Position numbers and translations under genes: made by a program
The notes under the pieces: generated by a model
Seen by the model: the letters and a program-made list of their open reading frames with translations, nothing else
Databases searched by the model: none
Told to the model about the DNA's origin: nothing
Origin: a virus
Strand: one strand, 5' to 3'
DNA length: 38,281 nucleotides
Virus record (IMG/VR): IMGVR_UViG_3300013112_000194
Span: 1-38,281 of that record
Shown: positions 1,877 through 36,120 of the stretch, piece after piece
Layout: every line of letters starts with the position of its first letter
Position numbering within the stretch: position 1 is the stretch's first letter

Positions 1877-2028
1877 CACCGACAAAGGAAGAAAAGAAAA
1901 GAATTATGGACAAAGTTCCTACTAGAACGATGTCTTATAAACAATGGGGTGAAGTTCTAGGTTGGACTCACTCAGAAGCAAAACAAGGAATTAAAGATGA
2001 AGACATTCAATCAACTAAGAGAAGCTAA
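1867..2028 (+). CDS. Small hypothetical protein (53 residues)
   Basis: An ATG frame overlapping the end of the preceding gene by 10 bases and the start of the polyprotein by 32 bases. It encodes a basic, helix-compatible peptide with the segment YKQWGEVLGWTHSEA, reminiscent of a short helix-turn-helix. It fills the only gap between 1610-1876 and 1997, which supports it, but the size and double overlap leave real doubt. It could instead be an untranslated leader. Confidence 0.5.
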   Translation: MSVTPTKEEKKRIMDKVPTRTMSYKQWGEVLGWTHSEAKQGIKDEDIQSTKRS

Positions 2029-3511
2029 AAACTACGATAAAATAGCAAAGGATATAAACAAAACTTATGCTTCATCTAGAGGTAAAGTAGGTAAGGATAA
2101 AGATGGTGTTGATACTGCTGGAAACCGTGTAGTTTATGAAAAGGATGGTTATAGAGTACAGCAACTGACTGACGATGGTTTGGGTGATACGTTTGTTGTT
2201 ATTAAAAACTATAAGCAACTTCTTTTAGGTTGGTCTGCTAAAGTTGGTGGAAATAAAAAGACTGCTCTAAAACTTAAAAAGACTGATAAGTTCAAATGGA
2301 CTTGGGCAAAGTATGCCAAAAATTATGGTGGACAAGCAGGTGGTATGTTACAAGCACCTGGCTCAGAAACACTATCTGGTAATACGTGGGAAGTATCTCC
2401 TGTAGAATTAATTGCTTGGTTAAAGAAAGAAGGTATTAAAGAATCAGTTGAACTTGAAGAAGGTTACTTTAACGTCCAATACTACGATAAAAAAGGTAAA
2501 GCAGTTAAAGGTGGTAAAACATTCAAAACTAAATCTGAAGCAGATAAGTATGCTAAACGTGGTAACGCAGTAGATAAAGTTGGTGGTACATATAAAGTTC
2601 TTGCTGTTAAAGGACGTATGGAATCAGTTGAACTAGACGAAGTTGAACTTGATGAAGCAAAACAAGTATCTCTTTCAAAGAAAGGTGAATATAATTTAAC
2701 TGCTGATGGCAAATCCTCTGTTGGTGTTCGTTTATCACTAAGATATAATGGTAAACAAGTTCTTACTGGTGTTAAACAAGATGGTATGTTTGTAATGGCG
2801 TTTGATGCTAAGTTCGTTAAAGATAATAAATTAGATCACGGTGCTAAGATTGTTAAGAAAGGTAAGTGGACTCACGTAGGATTCAAGAAAGCAGACGATG
2901 TAATTGCTTATGCCGTTCTTGGTGGATTGAGTGAAGAAGTTATTAATGAAGTTAATAATGGATTAGGTTCATTTGTTTCGCAAATGAAGAAGTTACTTAA
3001 AGACCCTAAAGCAAAAAAGGCACACAGAGCCGCCTCATCATTGATTATGCGTGCCCAAGAGAAAGGACCTCTTGCTAAAACTGCTGTTAAAGCAATCAAA
3101 AAAGCATTGCCTGGACTTGCTAAGAAGGCAGGTGGTAAATGGGAAAAGAAAATTCTTGGTATGAGAACAATGTTAATTGAGGAAAAAGAAATGAAAACAT
3201 TTGAAAGTCTAAGAGGTGAATTAACTGAAGCGAAAGCAAAAGGATTTATTGGAACTAAAGGTAATAACAACTACGCAGTATCATTAGATGGTGCTGACAG
3301 TTCACGTCCTGATTCAATGGATGTAGAACGTGCCGCTCATAAATTTAAGAAAGTTGCTAAAAAGGGTTATGCTGGTTCTAAAGGTAAAGCAACTATACCT
3401 GCAGTTAAAAAAGAAATTAAAATGTTAGGTGCAACACAGTATTATGCAAAATGGCAGAAAGATTCTTCTTCATACAAAGATGATACTGTTACAATCTATT
3501 ACACTAAATAG
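1997..3511 (+). CDS. Prohead internal-protein polyprotein with repeated LxE|A/G cleavage sites
   Basis: 504 residues, very Lys-rich. The N-terminus MKTFNQLREA matches the T4 capsid-targeting peptide of internal proteins (MKTYQEF..E|A, known from T4), including a gp21 protease-type site LRE|A at 9/10. Further sites fitting L-x-E|A/G are at 155/156 (LEE|G, in ESVELEEG), 220/221 (LDE|A, in ESVELDEVELDEA) and 411/412 (LTE|A). Looser ones lie near 215, 313 and 395. A second MKTFESLRGELTEA module begins at residue 399. Cleavage would release about four basic domains of 65-190 residues, as expected for DNA-associated head proteins. An aagga site precedes ATG 1997. Cleavage is inferred; the motif pattern is visible. 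Confidence 0.85.
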   Translation: MKTFNQLREAKNYDKIAKDINKTYASSRGKVGKDKDGVDTAGNRVVYEKDGYRVQQLTDDGLGDTFVVIKNYKQLLLGWSAKVGGNKKTALKLKKTDKFKWTWAKYAKNYGGQAGGMLQAPGSETLSGNTWEVSPVELIAWLKKEGIKESVELEEGYFNVQYYDKKGKAVKGGKTFKTKSEADKYAKRGNAVDKVGGTYKVLAVKGRMESVELDEVELDEAKQVSLSKKGEYNLTADGKSSVGVRLSLRYNGKQVLTGVKQDGMFVMAFDAKFVKDNKLDHGAKIVKKGKWTHVGFKKADDVIAYAVLGGLSEEVINEVNNGLGSFVSQMKKLLKDPKAKKAHRAASSLIMRAQEKGPLAKTAVKAIKKALPGLAKKAGGKWEKKILGMRTMLIEEKEMKTFESLRGELTEAKAKGFIGTKGNNNYAVSLDGADSSRPDSMDVERAAHKFKKVAKKGYAGSKGKATIPAVKKEIKMLGATQYYAKWQKDSSSYKDDTVTIYYTK

Positions 3512-18105: not shown

Positions 18106-18295
18106 GAAATATCATAAAAAGAAAACAAAAGAATTAAAAGAGAAACGACTTGCAGTATGCAAGGAGTGTGAACACGTCCGAGACCTTAAAAATAGGGGTT
18201 GGATAAATTATTGCAATTTGTGTGGTTGTATGTTACTTGTTAAAGCAAGAATACGATCATCTGATTGCCCAATAGGAAAATGGGATGAATTATAA
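18086..18295 (+). CDS. Small zinc-binding protein
   Basis: 69 residues overlapping the ligase end by 20 bases. CKECEHVR, then CNLCGCML, then CPIGKW: six cysteines in the order of a DUF6171-like zinc ribbon frequent in T4-like phages. The N-terminus is a basic helix (FEKYHKKKTKELKEKR). Overlaps purM by 11 bases. Likely structural zinc; function unknown. Confidence 0.78.
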   Translation: MSQTNFEKYHKKKTKELKEKRLAVCKECEHVRDLKNRGWINYCNLCGCMLLVKARIRSSDCPIGKWDEL

Positions 18296-19259
18296 AGAAA
18301 GTGGAGTAGACCTGCACGAGCAGGATGTTTTTAATGCAAGATTGGCCAAGAAAATGCCTTGGTTAGGTGGTTTTGGTGGTGCATTTGATATTGGTGAGGA
18401 TTATTTAATATCATCTACAGATGGTGTAGGTACTAAAGTTATGTTATATAATGACTATAAAGATGAGCCAGGTGTGAGTATTAGTAATTTGGGTATTGAC
18501 CTTGTTGCAATGGTAATGAACGATATTGTATGCACTGGTGCTAAACCTTTATTTTTTAATGACTATCTTGCAGTAAATGATTTGACTAAAATGGACGCTA
18601 TGGATCTGATTGCTGGTATTAATACAGGTCTGCATCTTTGTGGTGATGTGCCACTATTGGGTGGTGAAACTGCTATTATGGGTGATATGTATGGTGAGGG
18701 TGAGTTTGATGTTGCTGGTTTTGGTGTAGGTGCCTGTCCTAAGGATGATTTTATTGATGGTACTGCTATTTCTGATGGTGATGTTATGTTAGGACTTGCT
18801 TCAAGTGGTTTTCACTCTAATGGTTATACTTTGATTAGAAAGGTACTTGAAAACGTTCCTAATGAGGATATACCTACAGATTTGTTTAAAGATTTACTGA
18901 AACCTACTAAAATATATGTTAATTCAATCCTACATACATTAAAGAAACATAAGACGTCAATTCACGGAATTGCCCATATCACGGGTGGTGGCAGAGCAAA
19001 CGTAAATCGCTTATTAGGTGAAGATATTAATTTGCGACCAGTATGGCACGATGCAGAGCCTAAAAACGATATGTTTGAGTTTATTAAGAAATATGGTAAT
19101 ATTGATGAGTTTGAGTTTAGAAAGGTTTTCAATAATGGTATTGGAATGGTACTAATTGTAGATCGTGGTGATGCATTTGAAATACAACGTACACTTGAAT
19201 CTGTTGGTGAAAAGGTTATTGAAGTTGGTGCAATTGGAACTAGAGTGAGGGTACAATAA
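18285..19259 (+). CDS. purM: Phosphoribosylformylglycinamidine cyclo-ligase (AIR synthetase)
   Basis: 324 residues (bacterial enzyme about 345). It closes the imidazole ring in purine synthesis using ATP. Motifs in order: STDGVGTKVMLY, GIDLVAMVMNDIVCTGAKPLFF, LLGGETAIMGDMY, GLASSGFHSNGYTLIRKVL and IAHITGGGRANVNRLL. All key segments are intact, so it should be active. purM is a known auxiliary metabolic gene of marine T4-like phages, boosting purine supply. Overlaps the zinc protein upstream and the HAD gene downstream (TAATG). Confidence 0.95.
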   Translation: MNYKESGVDLHEQDVFNARLAKKMPWLGGFGGAFDIGEDYLISSTDGVGTKVMLYNDYKDEPGVSISNLGIDLVAMVMNDIVCTGAKPLFFNDYLAVNDLTKMDAMDLIAGINTGLHLCGDVPLLGGETAIMGDMYGEGEFDVAGFGVGACPKDDFIDGTAISDGDVMLGLASSGFHSNGYTLIRKVLENVPNEDIPTDLFKDLLKPTKIYVNSILHTLKKHKTSIHGIAHITGGGRANVNRLLGEDINLRPVWHDAEPKNDMFEFIKKYGNIDEFEFRKVFNNGIGMVLIVDRGDAFEIQRTLESVGEKVIEVGAIGTRVRVQ

Positions 19260-19764: not shown

Positions 19765-20616
19765 ATGTATAAGAAAATTTTAATGGCAACTGTTGTTGCT
19801 ACATCTATGACTGCTAACGCTGAATTTGGTATTACTGGTGACTATGAAGGCACTTGGACTGACGGTGGAGCGGCCACTTTTGCACAAGACCTAGACCTAA
19901 CTTTGGTTGGTTCAACTGAAGGTGCTAAGGTAACTGTAATGATGGAGGACTTGACTGGTGGTTCTACTGTAACTACTAATCAGGTATTTGTTGAAGCGGG
20001 TGTTGAGGGTTTAGACCTTAAAGCGGGTAACTATAAAACACAAAATGGTTCTGGTGTATTGCAAAAGAAATCTGCTGTTGCTAATCAATTTGAAATTGGT
20101 ACAGATGTTGCTGGTTTTGGTGTAAGTGTTGGTCAAGTATCAGGCGATGGTAATGCGACTGTAGATGCTTCTGTAACCGTTGCAGGTGTTGATCTAAGTG
20201 TACAAAATGTTGCAAATTCAGATCGTTTTGTAACTGCAAAACTTGATGTTGCAGGTGTTGATTTAACTACAGAAACACAAAATACATCTGTTGGTCGTAA
20301 TACTGCCTTTGTTGCTACAACTACTGCTGGTGGTTTTGATGTGACTGGTGTTATGATTGATGTAAATGATGCGACAGTTATTACACAAGATGATGGTGTA
20401 TTAGGTGATATTTCTGATGCTACTAACGGTAAGGACTTGAATGGTGTTGTGGTAACAACTGCATCAACTTTAGGTACTGTGACAGGTAAGTACATCAATA
20501 AAAATGATGCAACTACATATGTTGGTAAATTGGAACGTGGTATTATGGAATATGCATACTCAAAGACTGAAAATGTTGATGGTGTTGCATCTGTTAAACT
20601 TAAAGTAACTTTTTAA
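19765..20616 (+). CDS. Outer-membrane porin-like beta-barrel protein with signal peptide
   Basis: 283 residues. A Sec signal peptide (MYKKILMATVVATSMTANA|E) is followed by alternating beta-strand sequence (FGITGDYEGTWTD, DLKAGNYKTQ, FGVSVGQVSG, AKLDVAGVDLTTETQN) with few charges and no Cys. The chain ends SVKLKVTF with the C-terminal Phe that directs barrel assembly by Bam. The size is small for a 16-strand porin but fits a 10-14 strand barrel. It would sit in the host outer membrane during infection, changing permeability or masking receptors. Own promoter and terminator make it a single-gene unit. Exact family unverified. Confidence 0.8.
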   Translation: MYKKILMATVVATSMTANAEFGITGDYEGTWTDGGAATFAQDLDLTLVGSTEGAKVTVMMEDLTGGSTVTTNQVFVEAGVEGLDLKAGNYKTQNGSGVLQKKSAVANQFEIGTDVAGFGVSVGQVSGDGNATVDASVTVAGVDLSVQNVANSDRFVTAKLDVAGVDLTTETQNTSVGRNTAFVATTTAGGFDVTGVMIDVNDATVITQDDGVLGDISDATNGKDLNGVVVTTASTLGTVTGKYINKNDATTYVGKLERGIMEYAYSKTENVDGVASVKLKVTF

Positions 20617-25867: not shown

Positions 25868-26962
25868 ATGGATAACAAACAACATATTTTTACAAGTGAG
25901 TCTGTGGGTGCAGGACACCCCGATAAGGTGGCAGATCAAATAAGTGATGCATTGGTGGATGTAAGTCTACGGAATGGTGATGAGTCTACACGTACAGCAA
26001 TCGAAACATTGGTGACTACAAACTATGTGGTAATTGCAGGGGAAATAAAGAATAGTTGTCTTGCAAATAGCGAACACGTGGTTGAGGAAATTGTGCGAAG
26101 GAAAATCCAACAGATTGGATATGAGCAAGGTGGTTTTCATTGGGCAAATGTGGAAGTTGTAAATAGACTGCATTCGCAAAGTGGGGATATTGCACTAGGC
26201 ACAGATGACTTCGGTGCAGGTGATCAGGGTATAATGTTTGGTTATGCTTGTACGGAAACGGATAGTTATATGCCAGCACCTATTCATTATAGTCATCGTA
26301 TTCTTCAAAACCTAGATCTTAAACGAAAAGAGTCCACTGTATTAGGACCTGATTGTAAAAGTCAAGTAAGTATTTGTTACGAAGATGGTGTACCTAAATA
26401 TGCGACCAATGTAGTTTTATCTACACAACATACAGATGGGGATATTGATGAAGCACGTGAATTAAGTAAAGAAAGTATTAAAGAAGAGTTGGGTGAACTG
26501 TTTTCACCTTCAAAGACTAAACTGTTTCTAAACCCTACAGGTAATTTTGTTATTGGGGGCCCTGATGGTGATGCAGGTTTAACAGGAAGAAAAATTATTG
26601 TCGACACGTATGGTGGTTATGCACCTCATGGTGGTGGAGCATTCAGTGGAAAAGATCCAACAAAGGTTGATCGCTCTGCCGCCTATATGTGTAGATGGTT
26701 GGCTAAAAAGGCAGTGTCACGAGGACAATGTTCGTGGTGCTCAATACAACTATCATATGCCATTGGGGTAGAAGAACCAATGAGTGTTTATGTTGATAGT
26801 GATGGTGATAGTGAAGCAATTAGGAAAGGAATATTAAATGAAAATGATTTGACCCCATATGGTATTATTACTACATTTGGCTTATTTGATTTTTATAGGT
26901 ATTCGGATAATTGTATCTACGGACACTTTGGTGATAAAGATGTGCCGTGGGAAAAGGTATAA
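25868..26962 (+). CDS. metK: S-adenosylmethionine synthetase
   Basis: 364 residues (bacterial MetK about 384). Makes SAM from methionine and ATP. Signature segments are present: ESVGAGHPDKVADQISDALVD, GAGDQGIMFGYACTET, GGPDGDAGLTGRKIIVDTYG and HGGGAFSGKDPTKVDRSAAY. Catalytic His and the glycine-rich loop are intact, so activity is expected. Unlike the C-rich small genes upstream it is a full metabolic gene. It may supply SAM for the methyltransferase-like proteins at 32763 and 34879 or for host methylation. Confidence 0.96.
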   Translation: MDNKQHIFTSESVGAGHPDKVADQISDALVDVSLRNGDESTRTAIETLVTTNYVVIAGEIKNSCLANSEHVVEEIVRRKIQQIGYEQGGFHWANVEVVNRLHSQSGDIALGTDDFGAGDQGIMFGYACTETDSYMPAPIHYSHRILQNLDLKRKESTVLGPDCKSQVSICYEDGVPKYATNVVLSTQHTDGDIDEARELSKESIKEELGELFSPSKTKLFLNPTGNFVIGGPDGDAGLTGRKIIVDTYGGYAPHGGGAFSGKDPTKVDRSAAYMCRWLAKKAVSRGQCSWCSIQLSYAIGVEEPMSVYVDSDGDSEAIRKGILNENDLTPYGIITTFGLFDFYRYSDNCIYGHFGDKDVPWEKV

Positions 26963-28254: not shown

Positions 28255-28331
28255 GGAGCGGTAGTTCAGCTGGTTAGAATACCTGCCTGTCACGCAGGGG
28301 GTCGCGGGTTCGAATCCCGTCCGCTCCGCCA
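28255..28331 (+). tRNA. tRNA-Asp (GTC)
   Basis: Complete cloverleaf: acceptor GGAGCGG/CCGCTCC, anticodon stem CCTGC/GCAGG around loop CTGTCAC (anticodon GTC), T arm GCGGG TTCGAAT CCCGT. CCA is encoded. Confidence 0.95.
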
Positions 28332-28337
28332 AATAAT

Positions 28338-28412
28338 GCTCGGTTCGTCTATCGGTTAGGACCCAAGGTTTTCATCCTTGTAAGAGGGGTTCGATTCCCC
28401 TACCGAGTACCA
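28338..28412 (+). tRNA. tRNA-Glu (TTC)
   Basis: Acceptor GCTCGGT/ACCGAGT (one G-T pair), anticodon stem CAAGG/CCTTG around TTTTCAT (anticodon TTC), T arm AGGGG TTCGATT CCCCT, discriminator A and encoded CCA. Glu-UUC tRNA is a classic substrate for s2U34 thiolation. Confidence 0.94.
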
Positions 28413-31970: not shown

Positions 31971-32057
31971 GCGAGTATGGTGAAATTGGTAGACACAAGG
32001 GACTTAAAATCCCTCGCTAGAAATAGCATCCGAGTTCGACTCTCGGTACTCGCACCA
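31971..32057 (+). tRNA. tRNA-Leu (TAA)
   Basis: 87 bases with a class II long variable arm (TCGCTAGAAATAGCA region), acceptor GCGAGTA/TACTCGC, anticodon loop CTTAAAA (anticodon TAA), T arm CCGAG TTCGACT CTCGG, CCA encoded. TTA is a heavily used Leu codon in this AT-rich genome. Confidence 0.96.
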
Positions 32058-32669: not shown

Positions 32670-32747
32670 GCACAAGTACCAAAGTGGTCCAATGGGGCGG
32701 TTTGCAAAACCGTAAAGTCGTCAGTTCGAATCTGACCTTGTGCTCCA
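32670..32747 (+). tRNA. tRNA-Cys (GCA)
   Basis: 78 bases. Acceptor GCACAAG/CTTGTGC, 3-bp D stem CCA/TGG, anticodon stem GCGGT/ACCGT around TTGCAAA (anticodon GCA), T arm GTCAG TTCGAAT CTGAC, CCA encoded. The variable loop is slightly long. Confidence 0.92.
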
Positions 32748-32762
32748 ATATTAAAATATATT

Positions 32763-34112
32763 ATGAGTAAAGTTGATATAAGATGCAATGATGAGTTGTA
32801 TGATTACTATGGTGGTCATTTATCCGATGGACGACCAATATTAAATTCATCTGAGTTTAAATACGTAACAGACAAGTATGGTAAAGATATTGCCAGAGAA
32901 ACACTTGCACATTATATACACAATAACAGAACCGAATATCCAATTAAAGATATTGGTTATGATAGAATGTCTAAAACATTTCATAAACTTCGTACATCAA
33001 GTTATTTTGAAACAATAACACCTGTAGAGAATTTTGAAAATGGTATTATTGAAAAGTATGAATATGAGTATGATTTCGACACATATGGTTTAGGTGTTAT
33101 CGACGCACCTGCAACTTTCAACCCAGCATCAGATTACTTTATGAACAAATTACGTGCAAGGTGTTCATCTGTTACACATGATGGGCCTGCTGTTGTATGG
33201 GAAGAAGGTAGTGTTAGAAAAATATGGCAGGCCTTTGGTGCAATATGGAGAGGGGTTAATAATTGTCATTTTGATGAAGAAGGTAAAGTTATTAGTGGTG
33301 ATTTAACAAACGACACATACTTAACTGCCTTTCGTTTAGGTACATATCTAGCAACACAATTTAAACCAAACGTTGCTCGAACTATATACGAAATGTGTGA
33401 TGCGAAAAAGGTATTAGATACTTCTATGGGGTGGGGCGATAGGTTATGTGGGTTTATGACGTCTAATGCTAAAGAGTATGTTGGTTGTGACCCAAACCCC
33501 AATACATTTAAGAACTATAAAATAATGGCAAAAGAGTATTCAAAACTCGTAGGTGATGAAATTATTTCGGTTGTAGATGAAGATGATTATTATAAACAAA
33601 TAGGTACAAAGAAAACAGTTACAGTTTATAGAAGTGGTGCAGAGAATATACCGTGGAATGATGTAAATGAAATTGATTGTGCATTTACATCACCTCCTTA
33701 TTTTTCAACAGAGAAATATAATGAAGGTGGTGATAAAGAAGAAGACCAATCGTGGTCTAAATTTAAGGAATATGAATCATGGCGAGATGATTTTTATTTA
33801 CCAGTCGCAAAAAATAGTTTTGATGCATTGAGTGATAATGGTTTTTTATTAGTTAATATTATGGATCCTCGTATCCACGGTAAACGTTATCACTCTGGTG
33901 ATGAATTAGTTAATTCAATGAAGGATGATTTTGTTGGACAAGTTGGTATGAGGATTATGCAACGTCCACACGGCAAGATGAAATTCACCCCAGAAGAATT
34001 ACGTGAATATATGAAAAAAACTTATATTGAAAATGTATGGGTGTTCTCAAAAGGTAGTAAATTGGATTTATTTAGGGATGCTCGGGTTAGTAATTTGGAT
34101 AGTTTTTTTTAA
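32763..34112 (+). CDS. SPPY-type DNA methyltransferase-like protein
   Basis: 449 residues. SAM-binding motif I is KVLDTSMGWGDRLCGF, followed by YVGCDPNPNTF, and the catalytic motif is AFTSPPYFSTEKY (S/D-P-P-Y) of N4-cytosine and beta-group N6-adenine enzymes. The strand NGFLLVNIMDPR and terminal VWVFSKGS fit the MTase core. A long N-terminal domain of about 210 residues is unrelated and may recognise the target. ATG 32763 has a weak ribosome site. A relative is at 34879. Target base unknown; phage DNA modification or host DNA are candidates. Confidence 0.85.
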   Translation: MSKVDIRCNDELYDYYGGHLSDGRPILNSSEFKYVTDKYGKDIARETLAHYIHNNRTEYPIKDIGYDRMSKTFHKLRTSSYFETITPVENFENGIIEKYEYEYDFDTYGLGVIDAPATFNPASDYFMNKLRARCSSVTHDGPAVVWEEGSVRKIWQAFGAIWRGVNNCHFDEEGKVISGDLTNDTYLTAFRLGTYLATQFKPNVARTIYEMCDAKKVLDTSMGWGDRLCGFMTSNAKEYVGCDPNPNTFKNYKIMAKEYSKLVGDEIISVVDEDDYYKQIGTKKTVTVYRSGAENIPWNDVNEIDCAFTSPPYFSTEKYNEGGDKEEDQSWSKFKEYESWRDDFYLPVAKNSFDALSDNGFLLVNIMDPRIHGKRYHSGDELVNSMKDDFVGQVGMRIMQRPHGKMKFTPEELREYMKKTYIENVWVFSKGSKLDLFRDARVSNLDSFF

Positions 34113-34571: not shown

Positions 34572-34886
34572 ATGGCAATTGAAAGAATGTACCCTATTGG
34601 GGATAAAGTATTAATTAAACCAGATGCGGCTGGAAATGAAACTGCATCAGGTATCGTATTGACAACAGAAAAGAAATCATCTACAGGAACAGTGGCGGCA
34701 GTAGGGCCTGGTTTGGTTGCTATTGATGGTACAGTCCATCCATTACAGTGTAAACCTTTAGACCGTGTTATGTTTGCGGCCGTTGATGCGACAGTATCAC
34801 AAAGGACTATTACTATGAATGGTGAGAATTATTTACTAATTCCAGAGTCACAAGTCTTTGGTGTTATTGAGGAATCAGATGATTGA
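34572..34886 (+). CDS. GroES-like co-chaperonin (gp31 analogue)
   Basis: 104 residues (T4 gp31 111, GroES 97). MYPIGDKVLIKPD opens the barrel, ETASGIVLTTEKKSSTG is the mobile loop with the IVL chaperonin-binding edge, then VAAVGPGLV and a C-terminal GVIEESDD. T4 gp31 replaces GroES for major capsid folding; this chain is closer to bacterial GroES than gp31 is. Acts with host GroEL. Overlaps the second methyltransferase gene by 8 bases. Confidence 0.92.
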   Translation: MAIERMYPIGDKVLIKPDAAGNETASGIVLTTEKKSSTGTVAAVGPGLVAIDGTVHPLQCKPLDRVMFAAVDATVSQRTITMNGENYLLIPESQVFGVIEESDD

Positions 34887-36120
34887 TTTTTCATTAAGTG
34901 AAGATGAGTTTTTAACTTTATTTGATTTAACCCCAATAACTTATGATGAATTTTTAGCAACTGCTAAACGTGGTACAAAAGATTTCCCACTATTGGTAGA
35001 TTACTTCAAAGACTTAAAAGAACCGAAAGGTGATGATGAGGATTTACGTATTACCAAAAGGGATGAAGTTTTGCAAGGTATGTATGATATGATTTTTAAA
35101 GACAAACGTGACTTTCTAATCAAATGGTATAATACACACATCCACTTGTCAGATGATGCATTTAAAAAGGCAATGTATTTTAATACCAAACGTTTTAACA
35201 TTATGGAAAACGGTCTAATTGATGGTAGGAAAAATGATGGTAAGAATAGTAGGTTAATTAAAAATATGAACTTCTTCCAAATGTATTCAACTAAGAAGTT
35301 AGATAAAGATGATAACCGTAATACACTTGATGTTATTAGAAGTTTAATTGATGATGTTACATTTGGTGGAAGTGTATCGGCACCTGGCGCCGCTAAATTT
35401 TACCTAAACGGTGACTGGTCTACATTGTTTGCTATTATACGAGGAACTACAAATAAAGCATCTACGTTTAATCCATTCACTGCAGGTTGGATATTTAGAC
35501 ATATATTTAAAGCAGAGAAGGTTCTTACACCAACTTTAGGTTGGAATAGTTATTTGGTTGGTGCGTTAAATGCCGATGTTAAAGAGTATGTTGGTATTGA
35601 TGTTATTAAAGAAGTAACTGCAAAAAGTAAAAAGATTGTAGATTATTACAACGAAAATAATAGTAGTTTAGATAGTTTCTTTGGAAACGATGAACTTAAA
35701 CTTACAACTTACACGTGTCCGTCTGAGGAATTAAACGACCGTTATGGGTTTGACGAAAAGTATAGTAAACATTTTGATACTATTTTTTGTTCACCTCCGT
35801 ATTGGGATTTAGAATTATATGATGGTGATAACCCAGATCAAAGTACAAACAAGTTTACAAATTATGAAGAATGGTTAGATGGTTATTGGGGTGCAACTTG
35901 TAAAACACTAGCGAATGTTATGACTGATGATGGTAGATTTGGTTTTGTTGTTAGTAGTTTTTCAAACAATACCTTTTCAGAAGATATGAAGGATAAGGCT
36001 TCTGAATACTTTGACTTAGAACATCACTACAAGGTTTCGTGGAGTGCATTTAAGGTACTTGAAGGGAAAATGGAAGATGGTAATTATGAAGACTTTTGGT
36101 TTTTTAAAAAAAAGACTTGA
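34879..36120 (+). CDS. Second SPPY-type methyltransferase-like protein, altered motif I
   Basis: 413 residues. Catalytic motif TIFCSPPYWDLELYDG matches the paralogue at 32763, but motif I reads KVLTPTLGWNSYLVGAL, with Thr for the usual Asp, followed by VGIDVIKEV. A long N-terminal domain again precedes the core. Start ATG 34879 (gagga upstream) is used rather than 34858. Translation is linked to groES-like by overlap. SAM binding may be weaker; a heteromeric partner of the protein at 32763 is possible. Confidence 0.8.
   Translation: MIDFSLSEDEFLTLFDLTPITYDEFLATAKRGTKDFPLLVDYFKDLKEPKGDDEDLRITKRDEVLQGMYDMIFKDKRDFLIKWYNTHIHLSDDAFKKAMYFNTKRFNIMENGLIDGRKNDGKNSRLIKNMNFFQMYSTKKLDKDDNRNTLDVIRSLIDDVTFGGSVSAPGAAKFYLNGDWSTLFAIIRGTTNKASTFNPFTAGWIFRHIFKAEKVLTPTLGWNSYLVGALNADVKEYVGIDVIKEVTAKSKKIVDYYNENNSSLDSFFGNDELKLTTYTCPSEELNDRYGFDEKYSKHFDTIFCSPPYWDLELYDGDNPDQSTNKFTNYEEWLDGYWGATCKTLANVMTDDGRFGFVVSSFSNNTFSEDMKDKASEYFDLEHHYKVSWSAFKVLEGKMEDGNYEDFWFFKKKT

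Follow-up and report, generated by a model that had tools for sequence, protein, structure and literature searches.

Phage T4 marks proteins for its head with a capsid-targeting sequence (CTS) and cleaves after L/I-X-E (PMC9026906). Its internal proteins are diverse and share mainly the targeting sequence (PMC3012670 and PMC9026906). Polyvalent proteins are multidomain phage proteins for which packaging and injection have been proposed; they show domain shuffling, and their proteolytic processing is likely (PMC5512222). In the phiKZ-like inner-body or ejection proteins (SPN3US gp53 and gp54, phiKZ gp86), known cleavage either removes an N-terminal propeptide or breaks it up, and the accessible parts of that literature describe no strings of mature modules. 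The CTS, the specificity of gp21, the diversity of T4 internal proteins and injected multidomain phage proteins are all already known. For internal proteins strung together and cut where modules meet, we found no description in the accessible parts of the open-access literature, which most subscription papers lie outside.

We analysed a 38,281-base stretch of viral DNA (the window), which is the entire IMG/VR record IMGVR_UViG_3300013112_000194 and probably a fragment. The original prediction placed at 1997-3511 a Lys-rich protein of 504 residues that starts with MKTFNQLREA and carries four L-x-E sites followed by A or G within near-repeated linkers. The coordinates, length and Lys-richness were exact (86 Lys, pI 9.75), as were the N-terminus and the four sites (P1 at residues 9, 155, 220 and 411), and the linkers ESVELEE (149-155) and ESVELDEVELDE (209-220) are present. 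Further LxE-type sites beyond these four are IKE149|S, LDE215|V, LSE313|E and INE318|V. The features of the gene and its neighbour are as follows, with D1-D4 denoting the modules of the protein.

126-1088, + strand: zeta-toxin-like kinase gene with N-terminus MKSFKQHLQE (phrog_5268, 2e-50)
1985-1989, + strand: Shine-Dalgarno-like AAGGA, 7 nt 5' of the ATG, read from the sequence
1997-3511, + strand: predicted mosaic prohead-core/internal-protein polyprotein, 504 aa, pI 9.75
1997-2023, + strand: N-terminal capsid-targeting-like MKTFNQLRE, predicted from the sequence pattern to be cut after E9
2024-2461, + strand: D1, residues 10-155, with C-terminal linker ESVELEE|G; a 94% identical module occurs in contig L003
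2462-2656, + strand: D2, residues 156-220, with C-terminal linker ESVELDEVELDE|A; recurs in other loci
2657-2950, + strand: D3, residues 221-318, predicted compact beta domain (model, and recurrence elsewhere)
2951-3190, + strand: D3b, residues 319-398, helical in the model, possibly a separate module after INE318|V
3179-3183, + strand: GAGGA, 7 nt 5' of an internal ATG at 3191, a possible internal start read from the sequence
3191-3229, + strand: internal CTS-like MKTFESLRGELTE|A, residues 399-411, predicted cut after E411; absent from the original prediction
3230-3508, + strand: D4, residues 412-504, predicted independent alpha/beta domain (AF2 model, 22 loci)

A second IMG/VR record (L002) contains an identical 504-aa ORF; the single long frame thus occurs in more than one contig. 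Comparison supports assigning the N-terminus to the T4 capsid-targeting type: MKTFNQLRE|A has an aromatic residue at position 4 and Glu at 9, the T4 IPIII position being 10, one residue further, and the pattern is common to the 504-aa protein, the neighbouring kinase and eight genes in L004. Like T4 IPI, IPII, IPIII and Alt, the protein has a CTS-type N-terminus followed by L/I-x-E, and its predicted products are small and basic. Whereas T4 IP and Alt genes each encode one protein with one cut, this gene places several modules, separated by linkers of cleavable type, behind one targeting peptide. Neither the protein nor its pieces gave a PHROG or Pfam match better than E of about 0.03, and none showed homology to IP or Alt. 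The original prediction's label of T4-style internal proteins strung in one gene is thus borne out in part: separable modules, motifs at their borders, relatives adjoining head genes and the targeting N-terminus speak for it, but the likeness to T4 is one of architecture and targeting only, and no module resembles a known T4 internal protein.

Two other systems invite comparison. As with T4 gp67, gp68 and gp22, several relatives lie between portal and gp21 and each chain has multiple L-x-E sites; but T4 core proteins are mostly degraded, whereas in the strings the spacing of the sites follows the borders of conserved modules, each some 50-110 aa long. The genome region of the window gene is not that of gp67 and gp68, and PHROG and Pfam gave this gene no match to the gp67 or gp68 family. 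Polyvalent proteins have recognised domains of disparate activity, whereas the window protein has no recognised domain. Their processing is proposed mainly to occur through their own zincin-like peptidase domains, whereas a separate gp21 is presumed for the strings. Family searches found no peptidase domain in the window protein, such domains being common but not universal in polyvalent proteins. Searches for function or fold (Pfam, PHROGs, NCBIfam, PDB by sequence, and Foldseek against PDB and viral models) returned nothing convincing, and tblastn of the window protein against cultured phages and plasmids gave nothing usable. GH43_C and Arm-DNA-bind_4 (weak matches) and P53_tetramer in L238 fell below cut-offs and were set aside.

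We evaluated the number and placement of the sites against shuffled sequences. The 504-aa protein has four [LI]xE|A/G sites against a mean of 0.63 in same-composition shuffles (P(>=4) = 0.0026, a post hoc value for one protein). Among 15 family members, [LI]xE|[AGS] occurred 77 times against 14.5 +/- 3.7 in shuffles; in the same members the control motifs [LI]xD (51 against 59) and [LI]Ex (66 against 64) were at expectation, and [LI]xK was slightly above it (164 against 141 +/- 10). Most of the 15 were fetched through homology to D3 (221-318) or D4 (412-504) and not through the linker; the window protein and two relatives that came from the whole-protein search, whose peptide patterns included one linker, make up three of the 15. 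Edges of HSPs lay within 6 aa of [LI]xE for 56% of starts against 22% at random and for 53% of ends against 18%, with no such rise for [LI]xD or [LI]xK. A larger, linker-selected protein set gave the same border trend; its motif totals are not the main statistic, since the linker was required for selection. Of 104 distinct ESVEL[DE]E contexts in a collection scan that left P1' free, 40 had A or G as the next residue, the background being 15%. Many linkers in relatives have a P1' residue other than A, G or S, and cyanophage counterparts have fewer canonical sites.

The segments between the sites behave as modules. The copy of D1 in L003 lies downstream of a portal gene and differs from that of the window with dN 0.03 and dS 0.28. 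D2 recurs in L004, L238, L241 and L257 with differing neighbours. In the D3 model, 10-residue blocks from 231 to 310 have pLDDT 70-87, and several copies of D3 in other phage contigs directly follow LEE|G or LDE|G. For D3b, comparison with the relatives and segment clustering found no clear homologue, and a canonical site is absent between D3 and D3b with the relic CTS. The piece 221-411, the largest predicted, probably contains two modules and a relic targeting sequence and is therefore not one clean unit. L238 keeps a related KSFKELRGLIE|A ahead of its D4 module. Modelled alone from the predicted cut 411|412, D4 reached an AF2 mean pLDDT of 85.2 and pTM of 0.79, and it is predicted to fold confidently by itself; Foldseek searches with D4 against PDB and viral models gave no known fold match. 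The full-length model (pLDDT 48.8, with D3 best and the linkers at low confidence) is too poor for defining all domains.

Residues 10-155, 156-220, 221-318 and 412-504 recur in other marine phage proteins in differing orders, and the module borders coincide with LxE linkers. Relatives share parts of the 504-aa protein only; D2, D3 and D4 recur in L004, L038, L105 and L014 with different neighbours. Alignment scans found D4 in 22 loci and D3 in 13, the window's twin being counted in each, and the proteins at these loci are strings, mostly of 50-110-aa segments with ESVELDE-like linkers between them. In L238, L241 and L004 the gene neighbourhood is that of the window gene, with small ORFs accompanying a kinase on the upstream side and a primase on the downstream side (names read from translations), but the module sets differ. 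Splitting 20 strings at their sites yielded 106 segments, 92 of which fell into 17 shared families under single-linkage clustering, where the largest family may merge distinct modules; for most of the 17, neighbours vary. Across phages, module identity is about 50-94%, and dN was well below dS in all seven module pairs compared. A 75-aa CTS-bearing single-module gene (L236:2306-2533) shares 68% identity with the opening module of a string (L256:5161-6507); this match, together with the relic targeting sequence within the window protein, suggests that strings form when IP-like single genes fuse. Apart from the cultured phages, the loci are all metagenomic fragments, and gene names in the neighbourhoods were mostly read from translations, with families tested in the stated cases only.

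We then asked what surrounds the strings, which a linker scan found in many contigs. The gene order in L067 and L110 is portal, string, one or more small core-like genes, gp21-type protease, scaffold and major capsid protein. L093 and L118 keep this order from the string on, the contig stretch ending before the portal, and L259 has a D3-bearing string in the interval from portal to protease, directly preceding the protease. The strings in L067, L093, L110, L118 and L259 all adjoin gp21-gp22-gp23 genes. Family searches confirmed the portal (L003), the protease (L259) and the scaffold (L067), the other gene names being given by eye. The relatives in L067, L110 and L259 occupy the gene 67/68 position, between portal gp20 and gp21, and the window gene lies elsewhere. 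The original prediction had proposed looking for a gp21-type protease in the rest of the genome. Read by eye, the ORFs of the 38-kb window include none, and the window fragment has no late head cluster, but Peptidase_S77 (PF03420, gp21-type) is present in 19 of 55 distinct related records. Among gp23 N-termini, [LI]xE occurs within about 40 residues before the FDPVLISLVRR block in 26 of 26 distinct sequences. This placement near the inferred gp23 maturation site suggests that the proteases of this phage group may keep the T4 L/I-x-E specificity; a conserved LLE in the upstream helix also fits the motif, and the N-termini show a second site closer to the block. An ORF at 277-1413 of L061, next to a string, has a signal-peptide-like start (by eye).

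Virion data are available for the cyanophage S-CREM2, in which mass spectrometry detected gp154, gp155, gp156 and gp160, and also gp137 near the terminase genes (PMC10665884). The first four, gp154 being a cytidylyltransferase, come from a genome region matching the cluster of the window. The same paper cautions that some enzymes might be highly expressed and unseparated from virions, and its main text makes no mention of targeting sequences (PMC10665884). With the named structural and endolysin proteins set aside, 26 virion-detected proteins remain. The pattern [FL]..F[LMF].E, tightened from looser ones tried earlier, appears in the first 30 residues of 6 of these and of 1 of 166 undetected proteins (P = 2e-5); the pattern definitions gave P = 0.005, 0.001 and 2e-5, which are exploratory values because the last two definitions (0.001 and 2e-5) were chosen after the list was seen. 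The six carriers are a SAM hydrolase, Cas9, gp13, the kinase gp14, gp136 and the cytidylyltransferase, and their N-termini are of a type related to MKTFNQLRE. LxE|[AGST] at residues 7-20 had no significant link to virion detection in S-CREM2 (P = 0.30), and the window protein, with its shorter spacing F..L.E, does not fit the strict pattern. The virion-detected Cas9-type nuclease of S-CREM2 (OR473000, L288, 7704-10313) has a CTS-like FASFMAE|A near its N-terminus and may be packaged head cargo.

The kinase encoded at 126-1088, which also has a weak Zeta_toxin match below cut-off, is likely co-packaged cargo. Relatives in phrog_5268 are widespread in T4-like phages of enterobacteria, and the matches listed mostly begin at residue 30, beyond the CTS-type N-terminus. 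Eight clustered genes in L004 (3602-11047) have CTS-like starts (MKSFKQHLEE and similar) and include a cytidylyltransferase and a kinase; this is a probable block of head-cargo genes. Elsewhere in the window, the ORF at 19765-20616 has a signal-peptide-like start, is repetitive and resembles a bacterial outer-membrane porin (by eye). Those at 18285-19259 and 25868-26962 read by eye as AIR synthetase (PurM) and S-adenosylmethionine synthetase (MetK), both possible host-derived metabolic genes. A probable DNA methyltransferase pair with TSPPYF and CSPPYW motifs lies at 32763-34112 and 34858-36120 (by eye), and ARAGORN found four tRNA genes (Asp, Glu, Leu, Cys) at 28255-28412, 31971-32057 and 32670-32747.

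The main rival to a delivered set of domains holds that a core protein is cut up and then lost. On this account an enlarged gp67/gp68-type protein would be packaged and cut at LxE, and its pieces would help to assemble the head or fill volume and for the most part exit it, with nothing useful injected. Several relatives do occupy the gene 67/68 position from portal to protease, and L251 and L248 have gp67-like N-terminal helices (by eye). T4 gp22, gp67 and gp68 are themselves cut into several fragments (PMC9026906), and since these are mostly lost, multiple sites alone do not imply useful products. However, a disposable core needs neither modules conserved at about 50-94% identity with dN < dS nor the stable fold predicted for at least D4. 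Moreover, the window copy and its counterparts share their cluster with genes for a kinase and a cytidylyltransferase, and virions of S-CREM2 contain proteins of the matching region. We regard this rival as unlikely. A chain packaged but left uncut, with ESVELDE as a flexible acidic spacer or core-binding peptide that is also a recombination junction and with the modules forming one multidomain protein, fits the conservation of the linker past its LxE core and the K, V, R or N found at P1' in many copies. It seems improbable given the enrichment of A and G at P1', the specificity of enrichment and border placement to LxE (absent for [LI]xD and [LI]xK), and the match of the linker to the motif that this phage group retains close to its inferred gp23 maturation site.

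The GAGGA 7 nt 5' of the ATG that opens MKTFESLRGELTE|A raises another reading, in which translation from ATG 3191 yields most of the D4 as a CTS-bearing protein of its own and the long frame results from a recent fusion of two genes. This has a low probability in our judgement, as the L238 counterpart reads ERKSFKELRG without Met and the D4 modules of other relatives come after an ordinary LEE|A or LDE|A linker that lacks a start; D4 would in any case remain one of several modules, and an internal start is compatible with the main explanation. A search for mRNA structure at 3191 found none. Short motifs can also arise randomly a few times per protein, and the LxE sites could be chance products of a Lys-rich protein containing E and L; the shuffles of the window protein (P = 0.0026) and of the family (77 against 14.5) and the position of the sites at module borders make chance a very remote explanation.

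Overall, we think it probable that the gene encodes a prohead-core polyprotein that is targeted by its CTS, cut in trans by gp21 at the linkers, and whose domains are kept and delivered. In this polyprotein reading, the CTS-like MKTFNQLRE would bring the entire chain into the assembling scaffold core, where the activated gp21-type prohead protease would act in trans on the acidic linkers, cleaving after [LI]xE. Roughly four to five small basic domains would result (approximate lengths 146, 65, 98-190 and 93 aa). As with T4 IPI-IPIII and Alt, they would remain associated with the DNA and be passed into the host. The cleavable linkers would double as points for the gain, loss and exchange of position of modules, letting the cargo evolve quickly. 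The modules and their borders are strongly supported by sequence comparison, which also supports the reshuffling and the placement of the motif at the borders, and a virion location is supported indirectly by the gene position of relatives, the targeting peptide and the mass spectrometry of a related phage. Targeting and cutting draw on the T4 precedent and on motif placement, from which we infer that cutting may occur at these sites; retention of the modules after cutting, their injection and a function in the host would follow by inference. Against the polyprotein reading stand the window copy, which does not adjoin gp21, and D3b with the relic CTS, which has no canonical border from D3.

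More tentatively, marine T4-like phages may possess strings of effector domains behind one targeting peptide, with the linker as both cut site and exchange junction, such that one protein delivers many host-acting domains. If the strings are cut and injected, they would constitute a large and quickly reshuffled set of uncharacterised proteins delivered at the first moment of infection. This set would then be readable from sequence, the segments between LxE sites behind a targeting peptide being candidates for host takeover or anti-defence, and many "hypothetical" marine phage genes would gain a role. The combination of a CTS and LxE linkers would also amount to a sequence rule that predicts head cargo, which the S-CREM2 data support in part.
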